From Shinella zoogloeoides (GTDB taxonomy: Bacteria > Pseudomonadota > Alphaproteobacteria > Rhizobiales > Rhizobiaceae): a DNA stretch of 64,000 nt. Within the stretch, counting starts at the first letter, position 1, and each line of letters opens with the position of its first letter. The notes under the pieces are model-generated. The model did not search any database and was not told the DNA's origin. It saw only the letters and a list, made by a program, of their open reading frames with translations. Below, piece by piece: positions 12,309-36,321 of the stretch. Position numbers and translations under genes: made by a program. Location of the stretch: assembly GCF_020883495.1 (NCBI RefSeq), contig NZ_CP086612.1, positions 1 to 64,000 of the forward strand, given 5' to 3'.

Positions 12309-12602
12309 AGCCGTGGCATCAACGGCCAATCGAAATCCGGAATCTTTTCAATCCGGCCTTCTGCGGACTGATCTTGTCTCGTGCCATGACCGGCTACGAA
12401 GAGGATGATGATCGTGGAATGCCATTCTCATTGGCATTGCTGATCCTTCCCCTATGCCTACACAAAGAAACCAGGTCGATCCTTGCGAAGGGGTCACGAA
12501 GCTATTTCCTGAAGGCGATCGAGACACATCCGGAAATGCTGGTCGGCTTTCCACGTCGAACCACCGACATGATGTCATACACTTTCGAGGCACTTGGTCT
12601 GT
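12305..12602 (+). pseudogene. ABC-three-component system middle component, truncated
   Basis: The frame begins MKPWHQRPIEIRNLFNPAF and continues with GMPFSLALLILPLCLHKETR. These are signatures of the small middle component of ABC-3C systems (normally about 150 residues or more). It overlaps the preceding gene by ATGA, as expected in the intact operon. After about 99 residues it runs into the end of the second IS21-family element at 12603 and stops at 12622. The ATPase component that should follow is absent. Confidence 0.75.
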
Positions 12603-12654
12603 TGATTGCCACTGAGAACTGACCCGGCGTTTCCACCGAGAATTGACCCGCTTA

Positions 12655-13467
12655 TTAGGTATGTTTCGGCTCTGCGGTCGTGGTCAAGTTCCTCGTTTTC
12701 TCCTTTGTCGTTTTGGTGTCGTGCGCGGAGCTGTTCTTGAAGCGGAAGCTGTCGTTGCCGGTCTCGAGGATGTGGCAATGATGGGTGAGCCGGTCGAGCA
12801 GCGCGGTTGTCATCTTGGCATCGCCGAAGACACTGGCCCATTCGCTGAAGCTCAGGTTGGTGGTGATGATGACGCTCGTGTGCTCATAGAGCTTGCTCAG
12901 CAGATGGAACAGCATCGCACCGCCTGAAGCACTGAACGGCAGATAACCGAGCTCGTCGAGGATGACGAGATCGGAGTGTGCCAGGCGGTTGGCGATCTGG
13001 CCTGAGCGACCTTGGGACTTCTCCTGCTCGAGCGCGTTGACCAGTTCCACGGTCGAGAAGAACCGAACCCGCTTGTGATGATGTTCGATGGCCTGGACAC
13101 CGATGGCCGTGGCGATATGCGTCTTGCCCGTGCCGGGACCGCCGACCAGGACAATGTTGTTGGCGTCGTCCAGGAAGTCGCAGCGATGAAGCTGACGGGC
13201 CAGCGCCTCGTTGATCTCACTGCTGGTGAAGTCGAAGCCGTTCAGGTCACGATAGGCTGGAAAGCGTGCCGTCTTGAGCTGGTAGGCCGTCGATCGAACT
13301 TCACGTTCCGCGGTCTCCGCCTTGAGGAGCTGCGACAGGATCGGGATTGCCGCCTCGAATGCCGGCGATCCCTGCTCGGTGAGTTCGCCGACGGCCTGGG
13401 CCATGCCGTGCATCTTCAGTTGCCGCAGCATGATGACGACAGCGCCGCTTGCTGGATTATGACGCAT
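12655..13467 (-). CDS. istB: IstB helper ATPase (IS21 family)
   Basis: A 270-residue AAA+ ATPase with Walker [10 protein letters not shown], Walker [14 protein letters not shown] and [18 protein letters not shown]. It overlaps the end of istA by 11 bp. The C-terminal tail, rich in Lys and Thr, is normal for this IS21 subgroup. It is distinct from the istB of copy 1, so two different IS21 lineages are present. Confidence 0.94.
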
Positions 13468-14983
13468 GGCGGGCCTCCGTCTTTCTCAGCGCATCGTATC
13501 GTTCGACATTGGCCTTGGGCTCGTTGACGAGCGTCAGGGCCTGAGGTGCATCGATGGTGGGCGGTGTGAAGGATTTGCCGTCGACGAGGCGATGCAGCAG
13601 GTTCAGCACGTGGGTCTTCGTGGGGACGCCGGACTTCAGCGCCATGTCGACCGCCGATAGCACGGCCTGTTCGTCGTGCTGGAGAACAAGGGCCAGGATA
13701 TCGACCATCTCGCGGTCGCCACCCGGCTTCTTCAGGAGGTATTGCTGCAAGGTCCGGAACGCGTCCGGTAGCTCGGCAAAGGGTGCACCGTTGCGAAGCG
13801 CGCCTGGCTTGCGTTGCACGACCGCCAGATAGTGCCGCCAGTCGTAGATCGTCTGTCCCGGTCGGTCGTGAGAGCGATCGATGACGCGACGATGCTCGCA
13901 GACGATCTGGCCTTCCGCAGCAACCACGACACGATCCGGATAGACCCGCAGGCTCACCGGTCGATTGGCGAAGGATGCCGGCACGCTGTAGCGATTGCGC
14001 TCCAGATGGACGAGGCAGGTTGGCGTGACCCGCTTCGTATACTCCACGAAGCCGTCGAACGGACGGGTAACAGGCATCAATGCCAAAGCTTCCTCAGCCC
14101 AGATGTCGGCAATGGTGCCGCGCATCTGTCCGTGTGGGGTCTTTGCCCAGAATTCCTTGCACCGAAGCTCCAGCCAGTCGTTCAGGGCATCCAATGATGG
14201 AAAGCGCGGAACAGGTTGGAAGAAGCGATGACGCGCATCCTGAACATTCTTCTCGACCTGCCCTTTCTCCCAACCAGACGCGGGATTGCAGAACTCCGGC
14301 TCGAATACGTAGTGACTGGCCATCGCCAGGAAACGGACATTGACGTCGCGCTCTTTCCCGCGGCCGACCTTGTCGATCGCCGTGCGCATGTTGTCGTAGA
14401 TTCCGCGGCCGGGGATGCCGCCGAAGACCCGGAATGCATGATTATGGGCATCGAACAGCATCTCATGCGTCTGCAGGAGATAGGCCCGAACGATGAAGGC
14501 GCGGCTGTAGCTCAGCTTCGTGTGCGCCACCTGCAGTTTGGTGCGCTCATTGCCGATGATGGCCCAATCTTCCGACCAATCGAACTGGAAGGCTTCGCCG
14601 GGGTCAAACGCCAGGGGCACATATGTCCCGCGGCCCGTCGTCTGCAATTCTCTCTGCCGATCATCACGCCATTCCCGAGCAAATGCCGCAACCCGATTGT
14701 AGGAGCCCTCGTAGCCAAGGCTCATCAGATCGGCATGCAACTGCTTCATCGTCCGCTTCTGCTTGCGGTTCTTCTTGGATTCGCTCTTCAGCCAGGCAGA
14801 CAACCGATCAGCAAAAGGATCAAGCTTGCTTGGCCGCTCCGGGACTTTGAACTTCGGCTCCACGCCGTCCAGGCGCAGGTATTTGCGGATGGTATTCCGG
14901 GACAGGCCAGTCCTGCGGCAAATCTCCCGGATCGATAGTTCTTCTCGAAAATGCCAGCGTCGGATCACGCTCAATAACGCCAT
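13457..14983 (-). CDS. istA: IstA transposase (IS21 family)
   Basis: A 508-residue DDE transposase. The N-terminal HTH is [20 protein letters not shown], with a core including [21 protein letters not shown] and the EKGQVEKNV Glu region. The start chosen is the ATG at 14983, with GGAG 9 bp upstream. The open frame extends to 15049, but that part reads into the terminal repeat. Confidence 0.93.
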
Positions 14984-15092
14984 GTCGATCACTCCATAGC
15001 CCCCGCTGAAAACATGCGAGGGAAGGTTGGAACATGGGTCAATTCTCAATGGAAATATCAGGCCACGCCGGGTCAGTTCTCAGTGGCAATCA

Positions 15093-15718
15093 ACAGCCGC
15101 CCGCTTGCGTGTGCCGTCGGGCAGGATCTTGGCCACCAGGCAACGGTCATTGTCATAGACGATCGACTGCGGCACGGCCCCGAAGAAGGCGAATGCATGG
15201 ATGTGGCCGTCGACCCAGGCCTCGGCCACCGCCGCAGGATAGGCCCGCACGTAGCAGCCGTCGCTATGCGGCAGATCCAGCACGAAGAAACGCGCCTTTT
15301 GCTCGACGCCGCCGATCACCACCGTCGCCTCGCCAAAGTCGGCCTGCGCATGGCCGGGCGGATGCGACAACGGCACGAACACCTCCTGCCGACGCTGATC
15401 CCGCTCGCGTATGTAGTCCTTGATGATCGTGTAGCCGCCGGTGAAACCGCACTCATCACGCAGGCGGTCGAACACACGCTTGGCAGTATGGCGTTGCTTT
15501 AGCGGCATCTTCAGATCTTCGTCGAGCCAATGCTCGATCGTCGAAACAAACGCATCCAGCTTCGGACGCCGGATCGGTGATCGACGCTGATAGCCGGGTG
15601 GTGTCGAATAGGCCAACATCTTGGCCACGGTCTCTCGCGAGATGTTGAAATGCTTCGCGGCCTGACGCTGCTTCATCCCTTCCGAAACAGCCAGGCGAAC
15701 CTTCAGATATAATTCCAC
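15093..15718 (-). pseudogene. Truncated IstA of the third IS21 element
   Basis: About 208 residues of an IstA: ELYLKVRLAVSEGMKQRQAA, an HTH (KHFNISRETVAKML), then GHAQADFGEATV with the first catalytic Asp and QSIVYDNDRCLVAKILPDGT. It then meets copy 2 at 15092, so the second half of the catalytic domain and istB are missing. Confidence 0.85.
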
Positions 15719-15840
15719 GGTGTAGATCCCCTGTCCCTCCTGCCATCAATGCAGAAAGGAAATAGGTGGCCGGATTTTACTCCGCCCGCGCCAGCATTAT
15801 GCCGCCGCTACCGTGGCCGACTTTTGCACCGCCGCTCTCA
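15093..15840 (-). mobile_element. Fragment of a third IS21-family element
   Basis: The leftward end of a different IS21 element. A truncated istA is preceded by GTGCAAAAGTCGGCCAC-type and GTAAAATCCGGCCAC-type terminal repeats (read on the minus strand around 15820-15765). The outer end is probably near 15840, where the minus strand begins TGAGAGCGG, but it is not fixed by a duplication. The rest of the element was lost where copy 2 lies. Confidence 0.7.
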
Positions 15841-15956: not shown

Positions 15957-17123
15957 TCATGCTCCCCAATTCGGGTGACTAGGCCCTTGACCCGCCCATC
16001 TAACCATAAGACTTCCAGCCAACATGCTCACTCCAATCGCGAGGAGGAGGGGGGCGGCGAACTCCTCGGCCACTGTACCCGACGTCGAGGAAACCGATAG
16101 CAACATCAGGCTGAATTCTCCTCCGTGGGCCAGGATGATCCCAGTGCGCCAAGAGGTCTGAAGCGACTCGCCGAATAGTCGGGCGACGACCAAAACGATC
16201 AGCGTCTTGCCCGCGAATATGATCGCGAGCCAGATCAGCACGACAGGCCATGCAGATGGAATGATCCAAAGTGGCAATTGCGTTCCGATGCCGACAAAGA
16301 AAATCCCGACAAACAAATCGCGGAAGGGCCGAATCTCGTTCTCGACAGCATGGCGCGCGTCACCCTCGCCGATAATCATGCCGGCCGTGAATGCAGCGAG
16401 TGCCGGAGAAAGACCGGCGGAGGCCGCGACAATCGCAGACCCGAGCGCAATGGTGAGCGCGAGGAGCTGGGCAAGTTCCGGATCGCCACGCGACGCTACC
16501 CAACGGGCAAGCACCTGCAACGGGCCACGGGCAATGAACAGAGCTGCAACCAATGCCATTGCACTGGCGACGACCGTTATCACGCCATGTCCCTCGGCGG
16601 CTCCACTCATCGAATCGTGCAGAAGCAGGAATGCGACAGCTGCCAAGTCTTGAAACAGAAGCACTGCAATGGCCAGACGCCCTTGGGCCGATCCCAGAGC
16701 GTTCGCGCTTGCGAGCACCTTGAGGCACATGGCCGTCGATGACATGGCAACGGCCCCGCCGATGAGGATTGCGGGGACGGGCGCGAGATCGAAGATCAGA
16801 TTCGCTACCAACGATACCGTTATCGTCGTGACTGCAACCTGCGCGGCTCCAAGACCGAAGACATGCTTCCTGAGCGTTACGAGCTTCTCGAACGAGAATT
16901 CCAGGCCAAGCGCGAACAGCAGGAGTACCACTCCGATCTCGCCAATGCTGCTCAGGGCAGCGCTCTCAGCAATCAGGCCGAGGCCGGCAGGTCCGATGAC
17001 TATGCCGGCAAGAATGTAACCGACGATACTGGGCACGCCGATCCGTGAACATATCGTCACGAGCACGAACGCGGCAAAGACCAACAAGGCCGCACTTTCA
17101 ACAAATCCGGTCACGCCATGCAT
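15957..17123 (-). CDS. KefB-like cation:proton antiporter (CPA2 family)
   Basis: A 388-residue inner-membrane protein with about 12 hydrophobic segments (for example VESAALLVFAAFVLVTICSR, IGEIGVVLLLFALGLEFSF, ALALGSAI-type stretches). The Na/H exchanger-type core of CPA2 members is recognisable (IVGYILAGIVIGP, GEFSLMLL). It lacks the C-terminal RCK/TrkA-N domain of full KefB and RosB proteins. The start is ATG 17123 after AAGGAG; an upstream in-frame codon at 17177 has no better RBS. It is the last gene of the stress operon and corresponds to the kefB-type gene of tLST/LHR islands, where it is thought to help pH homeostasis. Confidence 0.88.
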   Translation of the reverse strand: MHGVTGFVESAALLVFAAFVLVTICSRIGVPSIVGYILAGIVIGPAGLGLIAESAALSSIGEIGVVLLLFALGLEFSFEKLVTLRKHVFGLGAAQVAVTTITVSLVANLIFDLAPVPAILIGGAVAMSSTAMCLKVLASANALGSAQGRLAIAVLLFQDLAAVAFLLLHDSMSGAAEGHGVITVVASAMALVAALFIARGPLQVLARWVASRGDPELAQLLALTIALGSAIVAASAGLSPALAAFTAGMIIGEGDARHAVENEIRPFRDLFVGIFFVGIGTQLPLWIIPSAWPVVLIWLAIIFAGKTLIVLVVARLFGESLQTSWRTGIILAHGGEFSLMLLSVSSTSGTVAEEFAAPLLLAIGVSMLAGSLMVRWAGQGPSHPNWGA

Positions 17124-17180
17124 GTTCTTCTCCTTCTTCTCCTGATGGCATGGCGCAGGAAAGGCCATTACCCGCAATTT

Positions 17181-17603
17181 CTAGACGTGAGAGCGCGCCC
17201 ATTGCGCGATCTGGGCGGCAGACATCACGCCGCTCTGGCGCGCGATTTCCTTGCCGCCTTTGAAGAGGATCATGGTGGGAATGCCACGGATCCCGTAACG
17301 GCCGGCGATCTGCTGTTCGGCTTCCGTATCGAGCTTGCCCAGGCGGACACGGGGTTCGAGCGAGCGCGTCGCCGCTTCGAATTGGGGCGCCATCATCTTG
17401 CATGGCCCGCACCAGTCGGCCCAGAAATCGACGAGTAAGGGAAGTCCGGCATTCGCATGACGGTCAAAATTAGCCGCGGTAAGCGTGACGGGTCTGCCTT
17501 GAAAGAGAGGCGCGCCGCAGCGTCCGCAATTGGGATTATCGGGCAGGCGCTCTTGCGGCACCCTGTTGGTGGAATTGCACTGCGGGCAAGCGACCGTGGG
17601 CAT
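17181..17603 (-). CDS. trxC: Thioredoxin 2 (TrxC type)
   Basis: A 140-residue thioredoxin with an N-terminal zinc ribbon (C6-C9 and C26-C29) and the thioredoxin fold with active site WCGPC (C65, C68), followed by DTEAEQQIAGRYGIRGIPTM with the cis-Pro. This is the TrxC layout and length; such proteins reduce oxidised protein thiols under stress. ATG 17603 gives the canonical MPTVACPQC start. It lies 57 bp before the antiporter gene and matches the trx gene found in tLST islands. Confidence 0.93.
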   Translation of the reverse strand: MPTVACPQCNSTNRVPQERLPDNPNCGRCGAPLFQGRPVTLTAANFDRHANAGLPLLVDFWADWCGPCKMMAPQFEAATRSLEPRVRLGKLDTEAEQQIAGRYGIRGIPTMILFKGGKEIARQSGVMSAAQIAQWARSHV

Positions 17604-17655
17604 TCTGTATCCTTTCGTTGACGAGCCGGTCCTGGCGGCCGGCTGATGCAAGCGT

Positions 17656-18498
17656 TCAGCGCGTAGATATGGCGCGGCGCGCCTCTCGCTGCCGCGGCTC
17701 GGGCAGGTATTCCACGCCACCGCCCTGGCGCCGAACCGGCTGCGGATAGAGCGTCATCAGCTCAAGTATTTCCTTGGGCATGTCCGTTGCAACGGGTAGG
17801 CCCATGTCGCGGGCCTCATCGGCAGAGATGGGATAATCGTGGGTCCAGGTGCCTGTCGCCAGCTTCGCCGCCACGGAAGCCGCGCGGTTCTCGTCCATCT
17901 TGTCGGATAGCAGGTGTTTTGCGAACGCCTCGATCTGCGCGATGGCCTTGCGGCCGACATCGGCCATGATCAGCGTCTGGTCGTCGATCTCGGCGATGGG
18001 TTTCTCCTCGACGACCTGGATCAGCGAGGCAGCAGGCAACTGGCCGAGCTGCGGATCGACGGGGCCCAGCACGGAATGCTCGCACATCACGATCTCGTCG
18101 GCAGCGAGTGCGATCAGCGTGCCGCCCGACATCGCGTAATGCGGCACGAACACTGTGACCTTGCCCTTGTGGCCCTGAATGGCCCGAGCGATCTGGGTTG
18201 CTGCCAGCACCAGCCCACCCGGCGTGTGCAGCACGATATCGAGCGGCACCTCGTCGTCGGTCATCTGGATCGCACGCAGGACTTCCTCGGAATCGTTGAC
18301 GTCGATGTAGCGCATCAGGGGAAAACCCAGCAGGTTCATGGTCTCCTGCCGGTGGATCAGCGAGATGACGCGGCTGGCGCGTTTCTTCTCGATCTGGGCG
18401 ATCTTGCGGGTGCGCATGGCCTCCAGATATCTGCGCTGAAGCACCGGTTGCAGCGCAGAGAAGATGAAGAACAGCCAGAAAAGCTGCATTATGTCCAT
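17656..18498 (-). CDS. SDH-family (SppA/ClpP-fold) membrane-anchored serine protease
   Basis: A 280-residue protein of the serine dehydrogenase proteinase family. It has one N-terminal membrane anchor (FWLFFIFSALQPVL, residues 7-20), a basic segment (RKIAQIEKKRASR), then the ClpP/SppA-like core with LHTPGGLVLAATQIA and the putative nucleophile in HYAMSGGTLIAL (S124). A longer open frame exists upstream, but ATG 18498 overlaps the rhomboid stop (10-bp overlap) and gives a clean membrane anchor. It probably degrades membrane-associated or damaged proteins in the stress operon. Confidence 0.85.
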   Translation of the reverse strand: MDIMQLFWLFFIFSALQPVLQRRYLEAMRTRKIAQIEKKRASRVISLIHRQETMNLLGFPLMRYIDVNDSEEVLRAIQMTDDEVPLDIVLHTPGGLVLAATQIARAIQGHKGKVTVFVPHYAMSGGTLIALAADEIVMCEHSVLGPVDPQLGQLPAASLIQVVEEKPIAEIDDQTLIMADVGRKAIAQIEAFAKHLLSDKMDENRAASVAAKLATGTWTHDYPISADEARDMGLPVATDMPKEILELMTLYPQPVRRQGGGVEYLPEPRQREARRAISTR

Positions 18499-19241
18499 GG
18501 ACCTTGTCCCCCTTCCCGTCGGCCATCCGGCAGAAAGCCATAGATGCCCTCGTCGCGATAATAATGGCGATAGGTGGCTGCCCGCCTTCGCAGGAGTGGC
18601 GTGACAATCCAACCGGCGAGAAACCCGCCGATATGCGCCCACCAGGCGATCCCGCCCGTGGCCTGATCGCCGCCGAGCGACAGAAAGCCGGGAATGACCT
18701 GCATGAAGAACCAGATCATCGCGAAAATGACCGCGCGCACTTCGAAGAAGAGGGGAATGAACAGAATCGGCACGATCACCACCAGCCGAGCCGCCGGAAA
18801 CATGCGTGCGTAGCAACCGATCACGCCCGCGATCGCCCCCGACGCGCCAAGCGCGGGAACGACTGAGTCGGGGTTCGCCAGCGCGTGAGCCAGTCCGGCC
18901 GCCACACCACAGAACAGATAGAACAGCGTGAATCTACCCGGTCCAAGCCGATCTTCGACGGCGGGGCCGAAGATCCAGAGCGTCCACATGTTCAAGATGA
19001 GGTGCAGCCAGCCGCCGTGCAGAAAGATATTGGTCAGGAATGGGGTCCAGTCGGACGGGGCGACGAGGCTCAGCTGTCCGAAGAAGCGCGAGGGCACCAG
19101 CGCAAACTCGAACAGGAACCAGTCCAGCACGCGCGGCGGCAGGCTGGTCTGATAGAGGAACGCGAGGACGCTCATGCCGATGACCGCCCATACGATGACG
19201 GGCGGGTAGCGGCGCGCGACGCTGTCAAGATAGGGAAACAA
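18489..19241 (-). CDS. Rhomboid intramembrane serine protease
   Basis: A 250-residue polytopic protein with the rhomboid signature: FLHGGWLHLILNMWTLW (residues 74-90), the catalytic Ser in GASGAIAG (S134) and the catalytic His in AHIGGFLAG (H203). About six membrane helices are visible. It is coupled to the SDH-type protease that follows (overlapping genes), so two membrane proteases may act in sequence. Substrates are unknown. Confidence 0.93.
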   Translation of the reverse strand: MFPYLDSVARRYPPVIVWAVIGMSVLAFLYQTSLPPRVLDWFLFEFALVPSRFFGQLSLVAPSDWTPFLTNIFLHGGWLHLILNMWTLWIFGPAVEDRLGPGRFTLFYLFCGVAAGLAHALANPDSVVPALGASGAIAGVIGCYARMFPAARLVVIVPILFIPLFFEVRAVIFAMIWFFMQVIPGFLSLGGDQATGGIAWWAHIGGFLAGWIVTPLLRRRAATYRHYYRDEGIYGFLPDGRREGGQGPWT

Positions 19242-19274
19242 GCGGCAGATCCTCGTTCGCGCTAGACATTCCGT

Positions 19275-19835
19275 TCATTGTTTTTTCCCGGCTATCGTCA
19301 CGCCCGTCCAGGCCGGCGGATCGGAGGCCGGGAAGGATTCGAGCGAGGCTTCGAGGACCGGATCGAAACTCTCCCTGTCGCTGGTAGACGGGTCGGCCGT
19401 GCTCTCATGCTGGACGCCTCTTGAGAGGCGGCGATCGGGGCGGAACGGGACCCGGAAGGCTCCCGGGGCATCGACGCCCCTGTGCAGCCGGTGGCGCGTC
19501 TCACCCGCCCAAGGGTTCGCCATCCGGGCTCCCCCGGCGTCCTCACGCACGACATAATGCCAGTCCTGCCGCTCTGCGAAGTCCACGGCGCTGTCGCGAT
19601 CCGGAAACTTCAGCCGGATCGGACGATAGGGATCGCCGTTGGACGTGTATCCCATCAGCGGCTCGATCTGCGGCGGCCGGGACGGCTCGAACTCGAGGAC
19701 CCAGTAGTTGGGCCGAGGCGCCGATGTCATCGCGGAACGGGCAGGACGGTAGATGATTGCCGTCGGCACGTCCCAGGATGGCAGATCGGTTCCGGGAATT
19801 TTCGGCGGGAATGGTGGGCGATTATGGCCGCGCAT
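19275..19835 (-). CDS. NDUFS4-like (ETC complex I accessory region) protein
   Basis: A 186-residue protein whose middle (residues 20-110) resembles the complex I NDUFS4/ETC_C1 region: DVPTAIIYRPARSAMTSA, NYWVLEFEP, IRLKFPDRDSAVDFAERQ with the WHYVV tail. Unlike the roughly 100-residue alphaproteobacterial NDUFS4 homologue, it has a C-terminal extension ending DPVLEASLESFPASDPPAW, a short motif I associate with small stress-related proteins. It starts 1 bp after the preceding gene. Its role in a stress operon is not known; an effect on respiratory complex I is speculation. Confidence 0.7.
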   Translation of the reverse strand: MRGHNRPPFPPKIPGTDLPSWDVPTAIIYRPARSAMTSAPRPNYWVLEFEPSRPPQIEPLMGYTSNGDPYRPIRLKFPDRDSAVDFAERQDWHYVVREDAGGARMANPWAGETRHRLHRGVDAPGAFRVPFRPDRRLSRGVQHESTADPSTSDRESFDPVLEASLESFPASDPPAWTGVTIAGKKQ

Positions 19836-19836
19836 A

Positions 19837-20457
19837 TCAGTTCTCCCGGGAGTCGGTGGATACGAGAAGGTGACGTTCGAGATCGCCGAGTTTTTCCATT
19901 CGCCTCGAATTCAGGCGAACGGCGCGTTCGGTGTTCTGCGAAGGAAAGGCAGCAGCGTGCAGGACGTCCGACCGCATCGCTATCGTGAGATCGGCGACGG
20001 CATTCATCACGCCCTCTCCGTCCCCGTCCGAGAGCGTGCCGTCAGCAAAACCGGACTGCAAGCTCTCCAGTACCTGCTCGAAGCTGGACACGACCCCTGC
20101 ACTCGCGACCACAGCCAGCTTGTGGCTGAGAACACGCAGTTCATCGATCAGCTTCGCATCGTGCCTTGCGGTTTCCACGATCTCTGCGACCTTCTCGATG
20201 CAGGCCATGTAAATGTCGCATTGCTGCTGGAGGATGATGACCCTTCCTTCCTTGCGAAGCTCGAGATCGGTCTGGCGATTGAGAAGCGCCGCGGTCAGAA
20301 TGATCGTCACGACAGCGCCGAGGAAGATGAGCGTCATCTCCTGCGCGAAAGGCAGTATGTCTTCGGCAAGATACATCGAACGAAAAACGAAAACGATGCC
20401 GATGCCCAAGGCAGCGGCCGCAGCAGCAAATGCCAAGTCAGGCAGGCGGTTCGACAT
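19837..20457 (-). CDS. Membrane protein of unknown function with cytoplasmic helical domain
   Basis: A 206-residue protein with two N-terminal membrane helices (LAFAAAAAALGIGIVFVF and EMTLIFLGAVVTIILTAAL) and a soluble, helical C-terminal domain of about 145 residues. I do not recognise the family. ATG 20457 overlaps the stop of the small upstream gene (TGATG), which supports this start over GTG 20463. It is inside the stress operon, between the hdeD-linked small gene and the NDUFS4-like gene. Confidence 0.75.
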   Translation of the reverse strand: MSNRLPDLAFAAAAAALGIGIVFVFRSMYLAEDILPFAQEMTLIFLGAVVTIILTAALLNRQTDLELRKEGRVIILQQQCDIYMACIEKVAEIVETARHDAKLIDELRVLSHKLAVVASAGVVSSFEQVLESLQSGFADGTLSDGDGEGVMNAVADLTIAMRSDVLHAAAFPSQNTERAVRLNSRRMEKLGDLERHLLVSTDSREN

Positions 20458-20672
20458 CAGCACCTCGCATTTTCGGTGTCAGATGGCTTGCACGGCTTTG
20501 CATCGGCGTCCGGCGCCACTGCGTCCCGGTGCCGCAGGAAGATTGGCGTCGGACCGCTGCCGAACGGATTGAAGCCGGTGCTCAGGCAACGGTCGAAGAT
20601 CGTTTCGTCCCATCGGGTGAAATCGTGCTCCTCGCCGGCAAGTCGCCCGTCATCCACCACAGGGCACCTCAC
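20457..20672 (-). CDS. Small coupled ORF between hdeD and the membrane protein gene
   Basis: A 71-codon frame starting at a GTG that overlaps the hdeD stop (GTGA) and ending in a TGA that overlaps the next ATG (TGATG). This exact fit at both ends is hard to explain by chance and suggests a translated gene, otherwise leaving a 210-bp hole in a tightly packed operon. The product is hydrophilic, with a Cys-Pro start (MRCPVVDDG), no membrane segment and no family that I recognise. Confidence 0.55.
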   Translation of the reverse strand: MRCPVVDDGRLAGEEHDFTRWDETIFDRCLSTGFNPFGSGPTPIFLRHRDAVAPDADAKPCKPSDTENARC

Positions 20673-21316
20673 GCCTTTGCCGATGGGGGAGCGTTATCGA
20701 AGGCCGCACCGTCCGAACGATCCGCCTTGCGAAGCCGTAGTCCGAGGAGGATCATCATCACCCCGAAGACCGCGGCGTAGAAGCCGATCAGCCAGCCGAG
20801 CGCGAGGAAGCTTTCGACCGGGCGCGTCAGCAGCATCCAGGTCACGACGACACCGAGAACGACCGAGAGAAGGCCGCTCAGGATCAGCCAGATTTCGCCG
20901 TTGACTTCCTTTCGCAGGCGGATCGCTGCCGCGATCTCGAGGGCACCCGAGAACACGGACCAGAATGCGATGCTGGCCCAGAGGAATGTCGCAAGCACAA
21001 GCGTCGCGACAAAAGGCGAGACAACTACGACGACGCCCGTGGCGATGCCCAGAATGCCGCTGAACATCAGCCAGCCCCAGCGTTCGCCGTTACGGATGTT
21101 ACGTATCGCGGCGACGAGGCCGAACACGCCGTCGGCAAAGGCGAACGCGCCGAAGACCAGCGTGAGCGCCAGAAGCGCTTCCGCAGGCATGACGAAGGCT
21201 AGCACTGCGATGATCAATGCGAGCACGCCGCGTAACACGAATGCCCACCAATTCCGGGACAGGCTGCACAGCATGTCCTGCATCTTGTCGGTCGGGTTTT
21301 CAGAGGCTGTGGTCAT
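20669..21316 (-). CDS. hdeD: HdeD-family acid-resistance membrane protein
   Basis: A 215-residue membrane protein with six hydrophobic helices (NWWAFVLRGVLALIIAVLAF, ALLALTLVFGAFAFADGVFG, WGWLMFSGILGIATGVVVV and onward) typical of the HdeD/DUF308 family, including the repeated GxxxxxxGxxxL pattern. HdeD is linked to acid and stress survival in enterobacteria, and a homologue is a standard tLST gene. It starts 26 bp after the sigma-like fusion gene and is coupled to the small ORF downstream. Confidence 0.92.
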   Translation of the reverse strand: MTTASENPTDKMQDMLCSLSRNWWAFVLRGVLALIIAVLAFVMPAEALLALTLVFGAFAFADGVFGLVAAIRNIRNGERWGWLMFSGILGIATGVVVVVSPFVATLVLATFLWASIAFWSVFSGALEIAAAIRLRKEVNGEIWLILSGLLSVVLGVVVTWMLLTRPVESFLALGWLIGFYAAVFGVMMILLGLRLRKADRSDGAAFDNAPPSAKA

Positions 21317-21342
21317 TGGTCGATCTCCTATTCAGTTCCATG

Positions 21343-22485
21343 TCAGGTGTCGGAGCCGGCCTCCTCGCCGGTTAGAGCGGCGGCCACGCGGCGGCGATCC
21401 TCGATCGGCTGAGGCAGACGCTGCGTGTGAGCGATTTCCCGTTCGATGGGCGCGCGGCCTGATGGATCTCTGACCAACCCGGCTTCGGCAAGCCTCGCGC
21501 GTAGTGTCGCGCCCGCATTTTCTGCGATCTCGGCGACCACTGTCTCGGTCAGGCCGAAAAGGTCTGCCGTCTCCGCGATCGTAGCGTTGTCGAGGTGGAG
21601 CCGATAGAGAACGCGGCGTTCGACCGACGGAAGATCGGCGATTGCCCGGTGCAGCACCATGGCGATCTTATGCCGATCCGCTTGGCTCTCGGGGTCTGTG
21701 CCGCCGTCGTCGGCGAGGAGGTCCTCCAGCATCAGCACTTCGTCGGGCTGGTAGAACTCGAACATCGCCTGATCCGCCTCGGTCGGATCCTCCGCCGGGG
21801 CCTCGGGTTCCGCCTCGATGGAGGCGGCATCCTCAGGCACGGCGCGGCGGGCGGCGCGGGATTCTTCCTCGATGGTCTCAAAAGCCAGCCGTTTCAGCCA
21901 GTCGCCGACGGAAAACTCCGAAGGCCGATCCTCGAAGCGGGCCAGCCCCTTGAGGATCGTCGCATCGACGATATCGCCAACGCTCAGGTAGCCAGCCGGC
22001 ACAGACCCGCTACACTCGAGATAGGTCAACTCGCGCCTGACGGTATCGTAGACCGTATCGAGATGATCCTCGATCAGGTCGAAGAAGAGTTGGCGCCGGT
22101 CCGCTTCCGCCGCATCCCGCGCGGGCGGCAGCGGGGCGCCGATCCGGCGCCGGCGGGCGGGACGCTTGTATTCAGGCTCGTGCTTGAGGCGCGCCACATG
22201 CCGATCGACCTGGTGGCGCAGGTCGGCAAAGGCCTTGCGCAGGACAGGCTCGATCTCGAATCCCTCTTCCCGCGCCGCGATCACGCCCGACGGCAGTTGC
22301 AGGCGCAGGCTGACTTTGATGCGCTTCTTGCCCCTCGTCTGCGAGGCAACGACTTCGAGCCGGACCAGATCCTCGCGAAAGCGTGCAAGGTGCGGTTCAA
22401 GTTGCCGCACTTCTTCCTCGATGACCTCAGGCGCGCGCTGTTGGCCGTGCCGGTCGAGATTGCGGAATGATCTAATGACGTTCAT
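21343..22485 (-). CDS. Fusion of HPF/S30AE-like domain and sigma-70-like regions
   Basis: A 380-residue protein. Residues 1-110 (MNVIRSFRNLDRHGQQRAPE, LVRLEVVASQTRGKKRIKVS, then FADLRHQVDRHVARLKHE) look like the beta-alpha ribosome-hibernation S30AE/HPF fold. About residues 120-230 contain a sigma region 2-like segment (LTYLECSGSVPAGYLSVGDI, WLKRLAFETI). After an acidic linker, residues 300-350 read as sigma region 4 (LPSVERRVLYRLHLDNATIA, ETADLFGLTETVVAEI). ATG 22485 gives a clean HPF-like start. It lies between clpK and hdeD. It may couple ribosome protection with transcription control, or the sigma half may have lost DNA binding. Confidence 0.72.
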   Translation of the reverse strand: MNVIRSFRNLDRHGQQRAPEVIEEEVRQLEPHLARFREDLVRLEVVASQTRGKKRIKVSLRLQLPSGVIAAREEGFEIEPVLRKAFADLRHQVDRHVARLKHEPEYKRPARRRRIGAPLPPARDAAEADRRQLFFDLIEDHLDTVYDTVRRELTYLECSGSVPAGYLSVGDIVDATILKGLARFEDRPSEFSVGDWLKRLAFETIEEESRAARRAVPEDAASIEAEPEAPAEDPTEADQAMFEFYQPDEVLMLEDLLADDGGTDPESQADRHKIAMVLHRAIADLPSVERRVLYRLHLDNATIAETADLFGLTETVVAEIAENAGATLRARLAEAGLVRDPSGRAPIEREIAHTQRLPQPIEDRRRVAAALTGEEAGSDT

Positions 22486-22562
22486 GCCGTGGACCTTCCT
22501 ATAACTCTCCGAAGAGATGGTCCGGCGCGACCGATATCGCGCCGGGCCAGTCTTTTGCGCTG

Positions 22563-25457
<2,895 letters not shown>

Positions 25458-25520
25458 TCGTCTTCTCCGTTTCTTTATCCAGTCGGGGTTGTCCGCCGAT
25501 CATCTGCGCCAGTGACAGTG

Positions 25521-27353
25521 TTACGCAGCGACCGCTTCCGTTCTTTTCACCTTGGAACCAATTGCCACCAGATCGGGCTCGTCCAGTGTCTCTCGTTGCA
25601 GGAGATCCTGCGCAGATTGCTCAAGAAGATCCCGATTGCTTTCAAGAAGGGTGAGGGTGCGCTTGAACACGCCATCCACGATGTCGCGCACCTTCGCGTC
25701 CATCCGCTCAGCAGTGGCGTCGCTGTAGCGGCGGTTCAGCCAAGACGACTGGTCGCCGGTGCCGAGAAAGCCGGGCCGATCGGTGTCGTAGCTGACATGC
25801 CCGAGGTCTTCGTCCATCCCGTACCGCGCGACCATGGCGCGGGCGATGTCGGTCGCCTTGACCAGATCGTCCGCCGCCCCGGTCGAGACATGATCGTAGA
25901 TGATCTTCTCGGCCGCGCGCCCGCCAAGCAGGACTGCGATCTTGTTCTCCAGCTCCTCCCGCGTCATCAGGAAGCGGTCCTCGGTCGGGCGCTGGATAGT
26001 GTAGCCGAGCGCGCCAATTCCGCGCGGGATGATCGAGACCTTGTGCACCGGGTCCACCCCCGGCAGAGCCATCGCCACAAGCGCATGCCCCATCTCGTGG
26101 TGCGCCACGATCTCGCGCTCGCGCGGGTTCAGAACGCGGTTCTTCTTTTCCAACCCGGCGATGATGCGCTCCACGGCATTGTTGAAGTCGTCCATCGTCA
26201 CCGCATCGGCCTTGCGGCGCGTGGCGAGCAATGCTGCCTCGTTGACGAGATTGGCAAGATCGGCGCCCGAGAAGCCGGGCGTGAGCGCTGCGACCTTCTC
26301 GGCATCGACGTCCGGGGCGAGCTTCACCTTTTTCATGTGAACGCCAAGAATTTGCACACGTCCCTTCTTATCCGGCCGATCCACCAACACCTGCCGGTCA
26401 AAGCGTCCGGCCCGCAACAGCGCCGGATCGAGAATCTCCGGGCGATTCGTGGCCGCAAGCAGTACGATGCCGACTGATGGGTCGAAGCCGTCGAGCTCGG
26501 TCAGAAGCTGGTTCAGCGTCTGCTCACGCTCATCATGGCCACCGGCGATCTGGCCGGAGGAACGCGCCCTCCCAAGAGCGTCGAGTTCGTCGATGAAGAT
26601 GATCGCCGGGGCGGATTTCCGGGCCTGCTCGAACAGGTCGCGCACCCGCGCGGCACCGACGCCCACGAACATCTCGACGAACTCGGAGCCCGAGATCGAA
26701 AAGAAGATCACGCCCGCCTCGCCCGCCACCGCGCGCGCGAGCAACGTCTTGCCGGTGCCCGGCGGCCCTACGAGCAATATGCCTTTGGGGATATGTGCGC
26801 CCAGCTTTCCGTATTCGGCGGGGTTCCTGAGGAACTCCACGACCTCCTCAAGCTCGGCCTTGGCCTCGTCCACGCCGGCCACGTGAGCGAAACTGACGCC
26901 GGTTTCCTTCTCCATGTAAACTTTGGCCTTGCTGCGGCCGACCTGCATGAACCCGCCGAAACCCTGCTTATCGGCGAACTTGCGGAACAGCAGCATCCAA
27001 ATTCCGAAGAAGACAAGCGCTGGCGCCACCCAGGAAATCAGCGTGCCGAGAAAAGTGTTTTGCGGAACGCCAGTGATCTCGATACCTGACCGGTCTATCC
27101 GCTCCAGGATTGCGGGATTCACTACGGTCGTCACGAACTGCTTCTTGCCGTCGACCGGTTCGGCGAAGGTGCCTGTGATCGTGTCTGACCCGACCGCGAC
27201 AGAGGAAATTTTCCCGTCAGCGAGATACTGCTCGAACTGGCTGTAGCTGATCGGCGCGACGGATTGCCAGCCGGCGATCAGGTTCTGGATGAAAAGCACG
27301 GCTATGAAAGCCACCACCCAGTACCAGATGTTGTATTCGGTCTTCCTTTCCAT
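25521..27353 (-). CDS. ftsH: FtsH ATP-dependent zinc metalloprotease (island copy)
   Basis: A 610-residue membrane AAA protease: N-terminal helix (residues 10-29), periplasmic domain, second helix (about 101-123), AAA module (Walker A G196-T203, Walker B IIFIDE at 251-256, second region of homology with [12 protein letters not shown]) and the zinc site HEMGH (H419, E420, H423). It degrades unassembled membrane proteins. ATG 27353 follows a purine-rich RBS. As the second gene after marR, it corresponds to the extra FtsH carried by tLST islands of Pseudomonas and others. Confidence 0.95.
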
Positions 27354-27367
27354 GCCGCTTGTCCCTT

Positions 27368-27799
27368 TCACTGGCGCCCGAGCCGCGCCCTGATCCGCTC
27401 GAGCAGCGCCAGCAGGGCGCGCCTTTCGTCCGCCGACAGATCCTGCAGGATTTCATCTTCGAGCGCCGATTGCCGCGGCGCGAGTTCCTTCAGCATCGCC
27501 CGGGCCTTCGACGTTGCCGTGACGATCTGCGCCCGCCTGTCGTCGGGCGAGGGCGACCGCTCGACCCAGCCGCCCCGGACCATGCGATCGACGAGCTGGC
27601 CGGCTGTGGCCTGGCCGACCTCCAGCAGGTCGGCCAGATCGCCGATGGTCAGCCCAGGCGCATCCTCGACATGCGCCGCCGCCATCCAGGACAGGCGGGT
27701 CAGGCCGCTGCCGCGGATGTCTTGGTCGATCCGCTGCTGGATGAGCTGCGCGACCCGGTGGATCGTCGTCCCGATCAGCGCGATGTCCGAAGAGATCAT
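27368..27799 (-). CDS. MarR-family regulator of the stress island
   Basis: A 143-residue winged-helix protein: RVAQLIQQRIDQDIRGSGLT then LTIGDLADLLEVGQATAGQL with a MVRGGWVERSPSPDDRRAQI wing, the classic MarR pattern with the conserved DDRR. ATG 27799 has an excellent RBS (GGAGGAGGG). It is first in the leftward operon, 14 bp before ftsH, and is divergent from the hsp20 genes. It probably represses both directions and itself from the palindromes in the gap. Confidence 0.9.
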   Translation of the reverse strand: MISSDIALIGTTIHRVAQLIQQRIDQDIRGSGLTRLSWMAAAHVEDAPGLTIGDLADLLEVGQATAGQLVDRMVRGGWVERSPSPDDRRAQIVTATSKARAMLKELAPRQSALEDEILQDLSADERRALLALLERIRARLGRQ

Positions 27800-27866
27800 G
27801 GTTATCCCTCCTCCGATTGCATGGTACACAGGAGAAACCGCCCCCCATCCAAAACGCAATGCACCC

Positions 27867-27911
27867 ATCATACATGCTTGCATAATAAATGGAACGGCCT
27901 ATCTTGATAGG
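27867..27911. promoter_or_regulatory. Divergent marR/hsp20 control region with two palindromes
   Basis: ATGC-TT-GCAT (27874-27883) sits directly upstream of a candidate -10 TATGAT on the minus strand (27872-27867) for marR. CCTATC-TT-GATAGG (27898-27911) is a 14-bp palindrome on the hsp20 side. Their placement between divergent operons makes them candidate MarR operators. The -35 elements are not clear. Confidence 0.45.
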
Positions 27912-28001
27912 CGTTCTCCGAACCCACATCCGGCCGGCACCGTTGCCCGGTCCCTCCTTGCCGACGGTTCGGGGGTATCGATCAGCAACAGGAGGCCAGC
28001 A

Positions 28002-28427
28002 ATGCTCTACCCGACATATCTGCGCCGCAGCGATCCCTTTGCGCTGATGCGCTCCATGATGCGCGATCTCGACCGCGGTTTCTGGCCGCCGTCCCGCGCG
28101 GCGTTCCCGGCGGTAAATGTCTGGCAAGGCCCTGAGGCCGTTGCAGTCACCGCTGAACTTCCGGGCATCGAACCTGACGACATTGAAATTTCGGTCAAGG
28201 ACAACGTCCTGACGCTGTCGGGCGAACGCAAGGCGCCCGAGGTTCCCGACGGTGCGCGCTGGCACCGCAACGAACGCGTTTACGGCAGGTTTTCCCGCGC
28301 GATCCGGCTGCCGTTCGTGGCCTCGGATGACAAGGTCGAGGCGAGGATGGCGAACGGCGTATTGTGGATCGTTATCTCGCGGCCCGAGGAAACGAAGCCG
28401 AAGAAAATCGAGATCAAGGCAGCCTGA
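28002..28427 (+). CDS. hsp20: Small heat-shock protein Hsp20, first copy
   Basis: A 141-residue ATP-independent holdase. It has an N-terminal region with MLYPTYLRRSDPFALM, an alpha-crystallin domain from about residue 38 (FPAVNVWQGPEAVAVTAELP, IEISVKDNVLTLSGER) and the C-terminal anchor region. It starts 12 bp after AGGAGG. First of three tandem hsp20 genes; it probably hands substrates to the ClpK disaggregase encoded on the other strand. Confidence 0.93.
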   Translation: MLYPTYLRRSDPFALMRSMMRDLDRGFWPPSRAAFPAVNVWQGPEAVAVTAELPGIEPDDIEISVKDNVLTLSGERKAPEVPDGARWHRNERVYGRFSRAIRLPFVASDDKVEARMANGVLWIVISRPEETKPKKIEIKAA

Positions 28428-28441
28428 CAGGAGCTGGAACG

Positions 28442-28840
28442 ATGAGCACCGACATCTCGCAAGCCGCCGAAAAGACGCCGACCGACTCGCCTGAGACCAC
28501 CGGCGGCGGACGCATCTACCGCCCGTCGACCGATATCGTCGAGACCGATCAGGGTTTCTCCATGATGCTTGAAATGCCTGGGGTCGCCGCCGATGCGATC
28601 GAAATCACGCTCGAAAATCGTGTGTTGACGATCCGCGGCAAGGTTGACCCGGTGCGGCCGAAAAACCTCGAACTTGCCTATGCCGAATATGGCGAGGGCG
28701 ATTTCGAGCGTGCCTTCACGCTTTCCGAGGACTTCGACCCCGACAGGATCGAAGCCGAGATGCGAGGAGGCGTCCTAACTTTAACGCTCCCCCGGGCCCC
28801 TGAAGCGCAGCCGAAAAGGATCGCCGTCAAGGGCGCCTGA
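28442..28840 (+). CDS. hsp20: Small heat-shock protein Hsp20, second copy
   Basis: A 132-residue alpha-crystallin-domain protein: YRPSTDIVETDQGFSMMLEM, AIEITLENRVLTIRGKV and a final GGVLTLTLPRAPEAQPKRIAVKG. It starts 14 bp after the first hsp20. Its sequence differs well beyond paralog noise, so the three genes are not recent duplicates. It matches the shorter sHspGI-like gene of tLST. Confidence 0.92.
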   Translation: MSTDISQAAEKTPTDSPETTGGGRIYRPSTDIVETDQGFSMMLEMPGVAADAIEITLENRVLTIRGKVDPVRPKNLELAYAEYGEGDFERAFTLSEDFDPDRIEAEMRGGVLTLTLPRAPEAQPKRIAVKGA

Positions 28841-28860
28841 AAACCGAAGGAGACCATATC

Positions 28861-29352
28861 ATGCAGATCAAAGACCTCATCCCCTGGGCGCGCAAGGACG
28901 GCGCGCCAGACGCCAAGAGCAGCGAAGACAACCCGATCGCGACACTCCAGCGCGAAATGAACCATGTGTTCGAGAACTTTTGGAACCGGGTCGGTCAGTT
29001 CGAATGGCCCTGGGGCAGCGGCGAAGCCAAATCCGACATGGTCGAGACCGACAACGCGATCGAAGTGTCGATCGAGCTGCCGGGCATGGAGATGAAGGAC
29101 ATCGAGGTGACGGTCAACGATGACATGTTGACTGTGAAGGGGGAGAAGAATATCGAGCGCCAGGTGGAGAAGAAGGGGTATTACCTGTCCGAGCGCAGCT
29201 ACGGCGCAATCTACCGGACAATTCCGCTCCCTCCCGGTGTGGATGGCGAAAAGGCGCAGGCATCCTTCAAGAACGGGGTTCTGACGATCAAGCTGCCCCA
29301 GACACCCGAGGCGCAGGCGAAGATCAAGCGCATCGATGTCAAGAACGGCTGA
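28861..29352 (+). CDS. hsp20: Small heat-shock protein Hsp20, third copy
   Basis: A 163-residue Hsp20 with N-terminal MQIKDLIPWARKDGAP, alpha-crystallin core (VETDNAIEVSIELPGMEMKD, VTVNDDMLTVKGEKN) and KNGVLTIKLPQTPEAQAKIK near the C-terminus. It starts 20 bp after the second gene. The three copies may cover different substrates or form mixed oligomers. Confidence 0.93.
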   Translation: MQIKDLIPWARKDGAPDAKSSEDNPIATLQREMNHVFENFWNRVGQFEWPWGSGEAKSDMVETDNAIEVSIELPGMEMKDIEVTVNDDMLTVKGEKNIERQVEKKGYYLSERSYGAIYRTIPLPPGVDGEKAQASFKNGVLTIKLPQTPEAQAKIKRIDVKNG

Positions 29353-29463
29353 TTTGCCACATTGGGTGTCGCCGGTTTGCGGCGTCCGCTCAGCTCCGTT
29401 TGATATCACGCCGTCTGGTGAGCCCCGGGGAGCCTGTTTCTCCAGGGCGGCTTTCGAGGGGGA

Positions 29464-29946
29464 ATGATGAAAGACCTGAAACGATCCGGGCTAACCCGTG
29501 AACAATGGTCGGCGATGACGCTCTACGAGAAGTTCGAACAGGTCGTCATTTTCGTCCTCAGCGCCATCATTGCGGTTATCGTCGTGGCGTCGGTTTGGGC
29601 GCTGATGCGCGAGGTCGTGAACCGGTTGGTCTTGGGAGCGTTCGACACGCTCGACTACGCCACCTTCCAGGTGGTGTTCGGAATGATCTTCACCGTTGTA
29701 ATTGCGCTCGAGTTCAAGCGCTCCCTTCTTGTGGCGACAGAACGCAGCTTCGGCATTCTCCAGGTCCGCACGATCGTGCTGATCGCGCTCCTCGCGATCG
29801 CGCGCAAATTTATCATCCTCGACCTTGGCGAGACGGAGCCAGCCAAGATGGCCGCCCTCGCGGGCGCGGCGCTTGCGCTCGGCGCTGTCCACTGGCTGGT
29901 GCGCGATCAGGACCGGCGCGAACTCGGAGGCCACGAGACACGATGA
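29464..29946 (+). CDS. psiE: PsiE-family membrane protein
   Basis: A 160-residue membrane protein with four hydrophobic helices (FEQVVIFVLSAIIAVIVVAS, YATFQVVFGMIFTVVIALEF, IVLIALLAIARKFIIL, AALAGAALALGAVHWLV) in the PsiE pattern. PsiE is a phosphate-starvation-inducible protein of unclear function and a standard tLST gene. The 111-bp gap after the third hsp20 has no gene. Its stop overlaps the ATG of the htpX remnant. Confidence 0.88.
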   Translation: MMKDLKRSGLTREQWSAMTLYEKFEQVVIFVLSAIIAVIVVASVWALMREVVNRLVLGAFDTLDYATFQVVFGMIFTVVIALEFKRSLLVATERSFGILQVRTIVLIALLAIARKFIILDLGETEPAKMAALAGAALALGAVHWLVRDQDRRELGGHETR

Positions 29947-30270
29947 CCGCGGCCTCCGCCAGCCACCGCCTGCTCAATTTCGTGCAATCGGCGCTGCTGC
30001 TCGGGCTCATGGCCGCGATTGCCTGGATCTCGGTGACAGCGGTCGTCGGACCCGAGACCGGTCTCCTCATGGCGCTCGCGATGGTCGGGGGGCTCCTGTT
30101 TGCGCCCGCGCTGCCACGCCGGCTGCTCCTCTCGGCCTATCAGGCGCAGTGGCTCACCGGTCGTGATGCCCCCGATCTCGTCGCGGCCCTGGCCGAACTC
30201 GCCCGCAGGGCCGGGCTGCAGCGCGCGCCGGCGCTTTATCGCGTGCCGAGCCGGCTGCCGAACGCACGCT
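29943..30270 (+). pseudogene. HtpX-like M48 metalloprotease, truncated
   Basis: The frame encodes two membrane helices (LLNFVQSALLLGLMAAIAWI and ETGLLMALAMVGGLLFAP) and then VAALAELARRAGLQRAPALY, RVPSRLPNA, as in the N-terminal part of HtpX. After PNA the frame diverges and the zinc motif HExxH never appears. The break meets an IS256-type remnant. HtpX acts in membrane protein quality control and is a tLST neighbour, so the island lost this end. The open frame continues without meaning to 30404. Confidence 0.72.
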
Positions 30271-30376
30271 GCCTCGGGCGTCTCCTGAGCGAAAGCGGTG
30301 GCGATGAAGGCCGAGACGACCCTGCGCCCGCTCTTGCCGGCGTGGGCCAACACGTTCCTCATGAAGTGGACGCGGG
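30262..30376 (-). pseudogene. IS256-family (Mutator) transposase remnant
   Basis: On the minus strand, RVHFMRNVLAHAGKSGRRVV continues as SAFIATAFAQE, a well-conserved stretch of Mutator/IS256 transposases. Only about 38 codons remain, wedged between the broken htpX and the IS1182-like fragment. This explains where the tLST right end was cut. Confidence 0.65.
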
Positions 30377-30413
30377 GGCTGTTGAAGAACTCATATTCCT
30401 ATGAAGGCGGTCC

Positions 30414-31215
30414 TCAGCAAATTGTTGCACTGATAGGCTGACCCAAGAACCTGAGGTCGCTGCCCGGCGATCTACCGGGGCGCTTTTCTTGATAAATGGA
30501 GCGCCAGATAAGGCTCCAGAATAATAAAAAGGCGGCGGCAAGCCGCTTCAGGTTGATCGCCATAGCGGTCAGGAAGGACTGGATGCGCATGTTCTCCAGG
30601 CCGCGGCGCACAGCCCGTGCGAGACCATGCCAGGATTTCGCCTCGCCATGGAAACCTTCCGAACGCCAGCGATGCCGACGATACAGGCGCTTTTCCTCTT
30701 TCCCCCAACGGTCACGTTTCCGCCGTGCTCGAAGAAGTGCGGGATAATCGTTGACGATGACCACAGCTTTAGTCACGCGCGAGGGGGACAGGCAGATCGC
30801 CGCAAGGTCGCAACCCTTGCAGTCCCTGGCTTTCGAAGCGAAGAAGCGCCCATATGCGACCTTGGTTCGGTTCGGGCGCAGAATCTTGCCGCGTAGGCAT
30901 TTTACGATATCGTGGTGGGCGTCATATCTGAATCGGCGCAAAGGGACCTTGCTGCGAATAGGCTCTGCCTTGGTTGGGATCACAGCACTGATCTTGCGCT
31001 CCTCCAGCCCGCCAAACACCTTGCCATAGGCATATCCCGCATCGGCGGTCGCTAACGTTATGGCCACCCCTGTCGTTTGCGCAGCAGTGTCGAGCCGAGA
31101 CAGTATATGATCGCCTTCATTCGCCTCGCCGGTTGTGACGTCGATCTCGACAATGACGCCACATTCGTCATCGACTACACCATGCTGCTTGTAGGAGGGC
31201 TCAAGACGTCTGTTT
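30414..31215 (-). pseudogene. IS1182-like transposase, 5'-truncated by Tn3 element
   Basis: The minus-strand frame reads SYKQHGVVDDECGVIVEIDV, then VTTGEANEGDHIL, DAGYAYGKVFGGLEERKISA, a Cys-containing segment (CKGCDLAAIC) and RSEGFHGEAKSWHGLARAVR, the C-terminal half of an IS1182-type DDE transposase. It is cut at 31215 by the left end of the Tn3-family element, so the N-terminal half is gone. Confidence 0.75.
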
Positions 31216-31272
31216 GGGGGCGGAACAAGGTCTGTTCAAAATCCTGCGCTAAGCTCGAACGAACCCTGAACA

Positions 31273-34997: not shown

Positions 34998-35085
34998 CGC
35001 AGGATTTTGAACAGACCTTGTTCCGACCCCCGATTGCCGCTCTTGCCGTGTGTAGCCATAAAAACATGAATTTTGCAATCATGTT

Positions 35086-36295: not shown

Positions 36296-36321
36296 CCGCG
36301 CTATGAGGGAGGAACTCCGCA

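Follow-up and report, generated by a model that had tools for sequence, protein, structure and literature searches.

A probable variant of the transmissible locus of stress tolerance on a Shinella zoogloeoides plasmid and the predicted HPF-sigma architecture of its orf11 product

The transmissible locus of stress tolerance (tLST), known also as the locus of heat resistance (LHR) or the transmissible locus for protein quality control (TLPQC), is found in E. coli, Klebsiella, Cronobacter and Pseudomonas aeruginosa. Its core operon is given as dna-shsp20-clpG, with dna first (PMC7685784), and the N1 domain of ClpG is reported to bind zinc (PMC10641755). Single deletions of two hsp20 genes, clpK, pscA/pscB (yfdX1/2) or hdeD lowered survival of both heat and chlorine, and deletion of kefB lowered survival of chlorine (PMC8407380). 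tLST-like clusters of Alphaproteobacteria have been described in O. actignis, Methylobacterium CCH7-A2 and Siccirubricoccus phaeus (PMC8290217); the archetypical 'alphaproteobacterial' island of that paper is from Methylobacillus flagellatus, which NCBI taxonomy places in Betaproteobacteria.

Here, we analyzed positions 1-64000 (the window) of a 340,407-bp replicon (NZ_CP086612.1, designated C3) in the 4.85-Mb genome of Shinella zoogloeoides (GCF_020883495.1). A compact island of about 16 genes occupies positions 15957-30278 and consists of a leftward operon opposite rightward hsp20-psiE-htpX' genes. The best explanation as a whole, to which we give a probability of about 0.8, is that this island is related to the tLST, acts in a similar way and encodes in orf11 a hibernation-promoting factor (HPF) domain fused to a sigma-like domain.

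Gene content and kinship with the E. coli tLST

All genes named in an earlier note made from the sequence alone were found on the strands it gave (ORF list and Pfam scans), together with its repABC replicon (repA-repB-repC at 1-3983 in a protein-family scan of the window) and its broken htpX, in which tblastn sees 35% of Ciceribacter HtpX. Neighbouring genes of the leftward run are separated by -10 to 77 bp, in line with the upper limit that the note had given; the 211 bp that would otherwise separate the membrane protein gene from hdeD are closed because a small ORF fills them, and modified forms of its motif DFTRWDETIFDRCLxxGFNPFGSGPTPxF are seen again in divergent loci including L008, L015, L066 and L108. 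Several gene starts were corrected from annotated relatives (marR 27799, ftsH 27353, the fusion gene 22485 and kefB about 17123). The 206-aa membrane protein matched no Pfam or NCBIfam family in profile scans.

The complete tLST of E. coli strain S43 (L114) served as the comparison island, with the KefB reference taken from L019. Identities were 72-73% for ClpK, 66% for FtsH, 63% for HdeD, 59% for Trx, 53% for PsiE, 40% for KefB, 34-40% for Hsp20 and 27% for orf11, and thus include the four proteins (ClpK, at 72%, HdeD, PsiE and Hsp20) whose search against tLST references had been proposed. The KefB value applies to the first 374 aa of KefB-GI, which has 569 aa against 388 aa in the window, and DegP and HtpX of a Ciceribacter relative are 56% and 41% identical to those of the E. 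coli tLST. The window ClpK retains C6, C9, C31 and H34, the zinc ligands of ClpG N1; its best listed model is NCBIfam ClpK (NF033606; 1605.8 bits, below the curated cut-off of 1900), and the ClpG model scored 1294.7. The two other Clp proteins on the chromosome of the strain, 895- and 839-aa frames that appear ClpB- and ClpA-like by length, are 42-50% identical to the window ClpK in partial matches; its core FtsH is 46% identical to the island FtsH, and its thioredoxins are 37-41% identical to the island TrxC.

FtsH provided the sole protein tree with chromosomal copies (52 rows, no outside root). A starred branch with a value of 100 separates 30 FtsH of alphaproteobacterial loci, the tLST FtsH of E. 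coli and three second FtsH copies from other alphaproteobacteria from 17 chromosomal alphaproteobacterial FtsH and the core FtsH of this strain, the opposite of the grouping with chromosomal orthologues that the earlier note had named as refuting its idea. A clade of chromosomal plus island FtsH against the E. coli tLST and three second FtsH was not rejected by the approximately unbiased test (p-AU 0.629), which on an unrooted tree says only that the latter four may group and leaves the starred branch untouched. Such second FtsH were seen in three of 31 sampled alphaproteobacterial genomes (L116, L117 and L118) and are 65-68% identical to the island FtsH.

Lack of synteny, the other outcome named as refuting, was not found either: in both the window and L114, hdeD adjoins orf11, trx adjoins kefB and psiE adjoins htpX, with the hdeD-orf11 order swapped in the window and this pair set apart from trx-kefB. 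An intermediate layout was observed in L191 (alphaproteobacterium G668), where ftsH, psiE and clpK lie opposite NDUS4-rhomboid-SDH-trxC-orf11 (31%)-kefB (28%); its orf11 lies between trx and kefB, and orf11 of the E. coli tLST is likewise beside trx.

Sequence identity, the FtsH tree and partial gene order together establish homology between the island and the E. coli tLST; the island is a variant form that has genes in common with the tLST and probably acts like it. The idea of a rearranged, expanded tLST is thereby borne out as to homology and rearrangement, and 'expanded' is a direction that the data leave unsettled. The xenologous tLST genes ftsH, hdeD, orf11, trx, kefB and psiE are all represented, as judged by identity and, for ftsH, by the tree; the dna-shsp20-clpG operon was not found.

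Spread and transfer among hosts

A genome scan with patterns of the orf11 family, whose alignment is mostly alphaproteobacterial, yielded 79 named loci (113 of the 179 stretches passed confirmation, and the best 80 were retained), all in alphaproteobacterial genera by title. The following frequencies hold for orf11-bearing loci only, in a taxonomically biased set in which matches may be partial. clpK was matched in 72 loci, always on the orf11 strand and in 71 at most 258 bp away from it, and the other genes were matched as follows: NDUS4 in 74, ftsH in 66, hdeD in 60, the membrane protein in 53, kefB and marR in 50 each, psiE in 49, SDH in 40, htpX in 35 and degP in 23. Since 17 loci match each of the 15 window genes counted (in eight of them, the match covers 80% or more of each gene) and 13,964 bp of the window match a Ciceribacter plasmid at 96.2% in identical gene order, the grouping of these genes is not due to chance. 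No clpK match was obtained in L037, L038, L096, L100, L106, L108 and L110; in L096, L100, L106 and L108, orf11 is likewise only half matched. In the two Rhodoplanes loci (L037 and L038), orf11-hdeD-membrane protein-NDUS4' lies close to a Tn3 resolvase end, in a stretch that gave no clpK match; L038 also has yfdX2 upstream.

Relatives of the island reside on plasmids from four orders, with 91-96% identity over about 10-14 kb in plasmid records of Ciceribacter, Agrobacterium, Shinella, Paracoccus, Roseomonas mucosa and Methylorubrum. The match to a Caulobacter record is shorter, about 6 kb at 92%. Fourteen plasmid loci were compared, including a gammaproteobacterial one (L018) and two that hold only a distant clpK (L020 and L021); omission of these three from the 81 sequences with at least 90% of ClpK, among 94 in the synteny table, left 78 rows for a clpK DNA tree, with host orders assigned from genus names. 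This tree requires 22 host-order changes (minimum 4; shuffled mean 34.6), and therefore the island moves between host orders; for Hyphomicrobiales, a minimum of 18 changes follows from the starred branches by themselves. Each of 200 shuffles left the host-order label less clustered than it is on the tree, so that spread partly follows host kinship. L074 and L075, both metagenome bins, have identical clpK genes, and one may be misbinned. The plasmid matches, the clpK tree and the locus comparison all display the horizontal transmission that characterizes the tLST.

The clpK of Sandaracinobacteroides hominis (Sphingomonadales) groups as sister to the window clpK (starred, 99), and of four loci compared, that of Aquamicrobium defluvii has the longest close match (12.4 kb at 97.0%). 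Gene identities are unequal within single locus pairs (orf11 76% and kefB 91% with Rubellimicrobium; orf11 74% and clpK 95% with Roseomonas acroporae), a sign that parts have been exchanged. When genomes were drawn evenly, with at most five candidates scored in each, orf11 was rare: three of 385 in the class and five of 397 in the phylum, the genome of the window being counted in each. Among those five, the locus of G627 ends at a contig edge, and G471 matches at only 25% in the sigma part, none of the locus genes being found in the 12 kb examined. The variant that the note described for a Rhizobiales plasmid is not confined to this plasmid and is widespread in Alphaproteobacteria. These results add several alphaproteobacterial orders to the hosts of tLST-like islands that combine homeostasis, envelope and redox genes, and the carriers include plasmids of environmental, industrial-fluid and clinical strains.

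The orf11 product, the proposed action and competing explanations

By sequence comparison, the fusion gene of the window is the orthologue of tLST orf11. Its product is predicted to contain HPF/S30AE at residues 1-105 and an extracytoplasmic function (ECF)-type sigma fold at about 128-343 (S30AE and sigma region 4 in Pfam); it passes the family score and fold test for HPF/RaiA (PF02482) and the family score for ECF sigma (TIGR02937), with sigma-2 and sigma-4 folds both predicted. Profiles and two AlphaFold models predict both folds in alphaproteobacterial and E. coli-type orf11 alike, the profile comparison of the two groups using alignments without shared rows. At the level of predicted fold, orf11 would therefore combine a ribosome-hibernation domain of the HPF type with an ECF-sigma-like one, an architecture for which no published description was found in the literature. 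Among the folded domains, sigma-4 shows the lowest conservation within the alphaproteobacterial set, though not within the wider one, and one plasmid copy has lost part of it. The tLST orf11, for which database cluster P0121 alone represents 5909 sequences, would gain a concrete identity linking ribosome hibernation and transcription; of all the results, this HPF-sigma identity most deserves a test.

Computation here covered gene content, homology, transfer among host orders and the predicted folds; all biochemical activities, the regulation and the coupling of hibernation to transcription are what we infer. The Hsp20 proteins would hold unfolding proteins, and ClpK would disaggregate proteins unaided via its zinc-binding N1 domain. 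FtsH, the rhomboid and the SDH protease may remove damaged membrane proteins, and HdeD, PsiE, TrxC and the KefB-like antiporter may protect the envelope, redox state and ion balance. The HPF domain of orf11 would park in the mRNA channel of the 30S subunit and protect idle ribosomes during or after stress, and the sigma-like domain could interact with either RNA polymerase or an anti-sigma factor, so that ribosome shutdown would be coupled to transcription. The hsp20 operon would be transcribed from an RpoH-like promoter, named for its likeness to the RpoH consensus, and the divergent MarR probably binds overlapping inverted repeats. The motif occurs in 41 of 44 distinct aligned hsp20 promoter regions, which are related sequences, and in 0.1% of shuffled ones; two inverted repeats span its -35 and -10. 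Among related sequences, the fit of these repeats to the divergent MarR is suggestive only.

Several points weigh against this picture. In tblastn (E 1e-6, 45 bits), neither the window nor any of 93 further sequences matched the MerR-like dna gene, and the hsp20 genes diverge from clpK, so the tLST core operon dna-shsp20-clpG is not found here. As for orf11, its published deletion in E. coli K-12 MG1655 lacZ::LHR is absent from the deletions that lowered acute survival of heat or chlorine, which by subtraction (PMC8407380) places it with the six of 13 genes that were dispensable there, and LHR2 carries it interrupted; a hibernation role would therefore be expected in recovery or long survival. 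An alphaproteobacterial stress operon merely resembling the tLST, with chaperones and proteases gathered independently from the chromosomes of its hosts, would agree with the missing dna, the different regulator, the opposite strand of the hsp20 genes (34-40% to the E. coli pair) and the extra NDUS4-rhomboid-SDH block. However, such an origin is very improbable, considering that FtsH groups with tLST FtsH away from 18 chromosomal alphaproteobacterial FtsH (starred, 100), that ClpK reaches 72%, and that orf11 is common to both and adjoins hdeD in both. It is also improbable that the island is decaying in this strain, with tolerance lost. While htpX is truncated, degP and yfdX were not found in the window, and a second copy is reduced to htpX'-psiE-hsp20s-marR-ftsH', the other ORFs are full length relative to relatives, the motifs checked (in ClpK, FtsH, the rhomboid and Trx) are intact, and degP and htpX, matched in only 23 and 35 of 79 loci, are variable parts.

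Within the tLST-related island, the sigma part of orf11 allows different roles. The prediction of both sigma folds and the passed ECF family model would suit a working alternative sigma factor for stress promoters, held on ribosomes by the HPF domain until stress; the weak conservation of sigma-4 in the alphaproteobacterial set (not in the wider set) and its partial deletion in one plasmid copy make this doubtful. A PhyR-like decoy, which binds a NepR-like anti-sigma factor or blocks RNA polymerase within shutdown and hibernation, is conceivable enough to keep in mind without being favored: gammaproteobacterial islands also carry orf11, to our knowledge the PhyR-NepR pathway is not expected in Gammaproteobacteria, and Pfam scans gave no receiver domain. 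More speculatively, orf11 might represent a new regulator class, a sigma factor (or decoy) built into a hibernation factor, in which ribosome occupancy directly sets the transcription programme after heat or oxidant shock and which has spread between bacterial classes within tLST islands.

Setting of the island and comparison with described systems

Table 1. Annotated features of the island, its promoter region and its borders (window positions).
Feature	Position	Strand	Basis or remark
IS21-type elements, left island edge	12599..15840	-	two transposase ORFs scanned
istB-like ORF in left-edge IS21-type region	12655-13467		named from layout only
kefB-like CPA2 cation/proton antiporter	15957..17123	-	PF00999; 388 aa, membrane part only
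trxC, Zn-ribbon thioredoxin 2	17181..17603	-	Pfam/NCBIfam profiles
ClpP/SppA-like SDH-type serine protease, N-terminal hydrophobic segment	17656..18498	-	PF01972, E 1e-113
Rhomboid intramembrane protease	18489..19241	-	PF01694; GxSG and AHxGG motifs kept
NDUS4-like protein	19275..19835	-	PF04800
206-aa membrane protein	19837..20457	-	recurs in 53/79 loci
Small ORF, ~71 aa, GTG start overlapping hdeD stop	20457..20672	-	motif recurrence
hdeD (DUF308)	20669..21316	-	Pfam
orf11 orthologue, predicted HPF/S30AE + ECF-type sigma fusion, 380 aa	21343..22485	-	profiles, AlphaFold models
clpK/clpG-type disaggregase, 964 aa	22563..25457	-	Pfam/NCBIfam profiles; Zn ligands C6/C9/C31/H34
ftsH, AAA zinc protease	25521..27353	-	Pfam, tree; Walker A and HEMGH intact
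marR regulator	27368..27799	-	PF12802/PF01047
Inverted repeat in marR/hsp20 divergent promoter, candidate MarR operator	27859..27883		conserved
RpoH-like promoter CTTG-N3-N14-CCTATCT, towards hsp20 genes	27877..27904	+	
Second inverted repeat GGCCTATC-TT-GATAGGCG over -10	27896..27913		
hsp20 A	28002..28427	+	PF00011
hsp20 B	28442..28840	+	PF00011
hsp20 C	28861..29352	+	PF00011
psiE	29464..29946	+	PF06146
Truncated htpX, first third only	29943..30278, ends approximate	+	tblastn; intact in L007
Transposase fragment adjoining htpX	30414..31067	-	PF13751/PF01609
Tn3-family transposon (tnpA, resolvase region) adjoining island	31216..35031	-	56/57-bp terminal inverted repeats

Insertion elements border both sides of the island (Table 1). 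Its carriage as a whole by the Tn3 transposon was considered and rejected, the 56/57-bp repeats bracketing only the transposase and resolvase region (31216-35031). A related Tn3 resolvase end is present in L010, L011, L037, L038, L039 and L049, which shows repeated Tn3 contact and does not prove a carrier role. The 8.4 kb to the right of the island match a Roseateles plasmid record at 92.5%, followed by Shinella replicons at 89-90% and Ensifer at 84%. A second, partial island copy, missed by the earlier note, lies on the same replicon (G000:C3:267956-271814, equal to L030:5956-9814) and is 98.4% identical to window 26898-30755; it comprises the truncated htpX, psiE, three hsp20 genes, marR and the start of ftsH, and next comes DNA that shares 94.7% identity with the IS21-type element bordering the window island on the left. 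Rfam models yielded no match within 15000-32000 at E values up to 1, hence no known RNA thermometer family was seen there. In the window, yfdX and degP had no match and htpX is only truncated; all three are present in part of the relatives.

Elsewhere in the window, a cyanophycin synthetase gene (36322-39126; PF18921, Mur ligase domains) follows a peptidase S51 gene (35423-36295) that may encode a cyanophycinase, and the region 35423-40944 partly matches Ruegeria cphA. At 6743-9563, a protein with a match to the ABC-three-component C-terminal domain 7 (PF20283, 8493-9563) is encoded beside a DUF1403 and ScpB pair.

Compared with the tLST, LHR and TLPQC, the island has in common clpK/G, hsp20, ftsH, hdeD, orf11, trx, kefB, psiE, mobility and flanking insertion elements, as well as htpX, degP and yfdX in its relatives. 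It differs in that no dna/MerR gene was found and a MarR gene is present instead, in an inverted arrangement with its hsp20 genes on the opposite strand, in a shorter KefB, in having three hsp20 genes, and in the additional genes for the membrane protein, NDUS4, the rhomboid and the SDH protease together with the small ORF. With the clusters of PMC8290217, as they are described there, it has in common a clpG-type gene with protein-homeostasis genes in Alphaproteobacteria and extra hsp20 genes; those clusters are reported to hold mostly the protein-homeostasis part, whereas the window adds orf11, hdeD, trx, kefB and psiE. The predicted orf11 product differs from short HPF/RaiA hibernation factors by the ECF-sigma-like region that follows, and from EcfG-type ECF sigma factors and the sigma-like domains of PhyR by the HPF fusion and a variable sigma-4. 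HibA of Archaea (PMC13324472) is also an HPF fused to a regulatory module, its partner being CBS, whereas that of orf11 is sigma-like.

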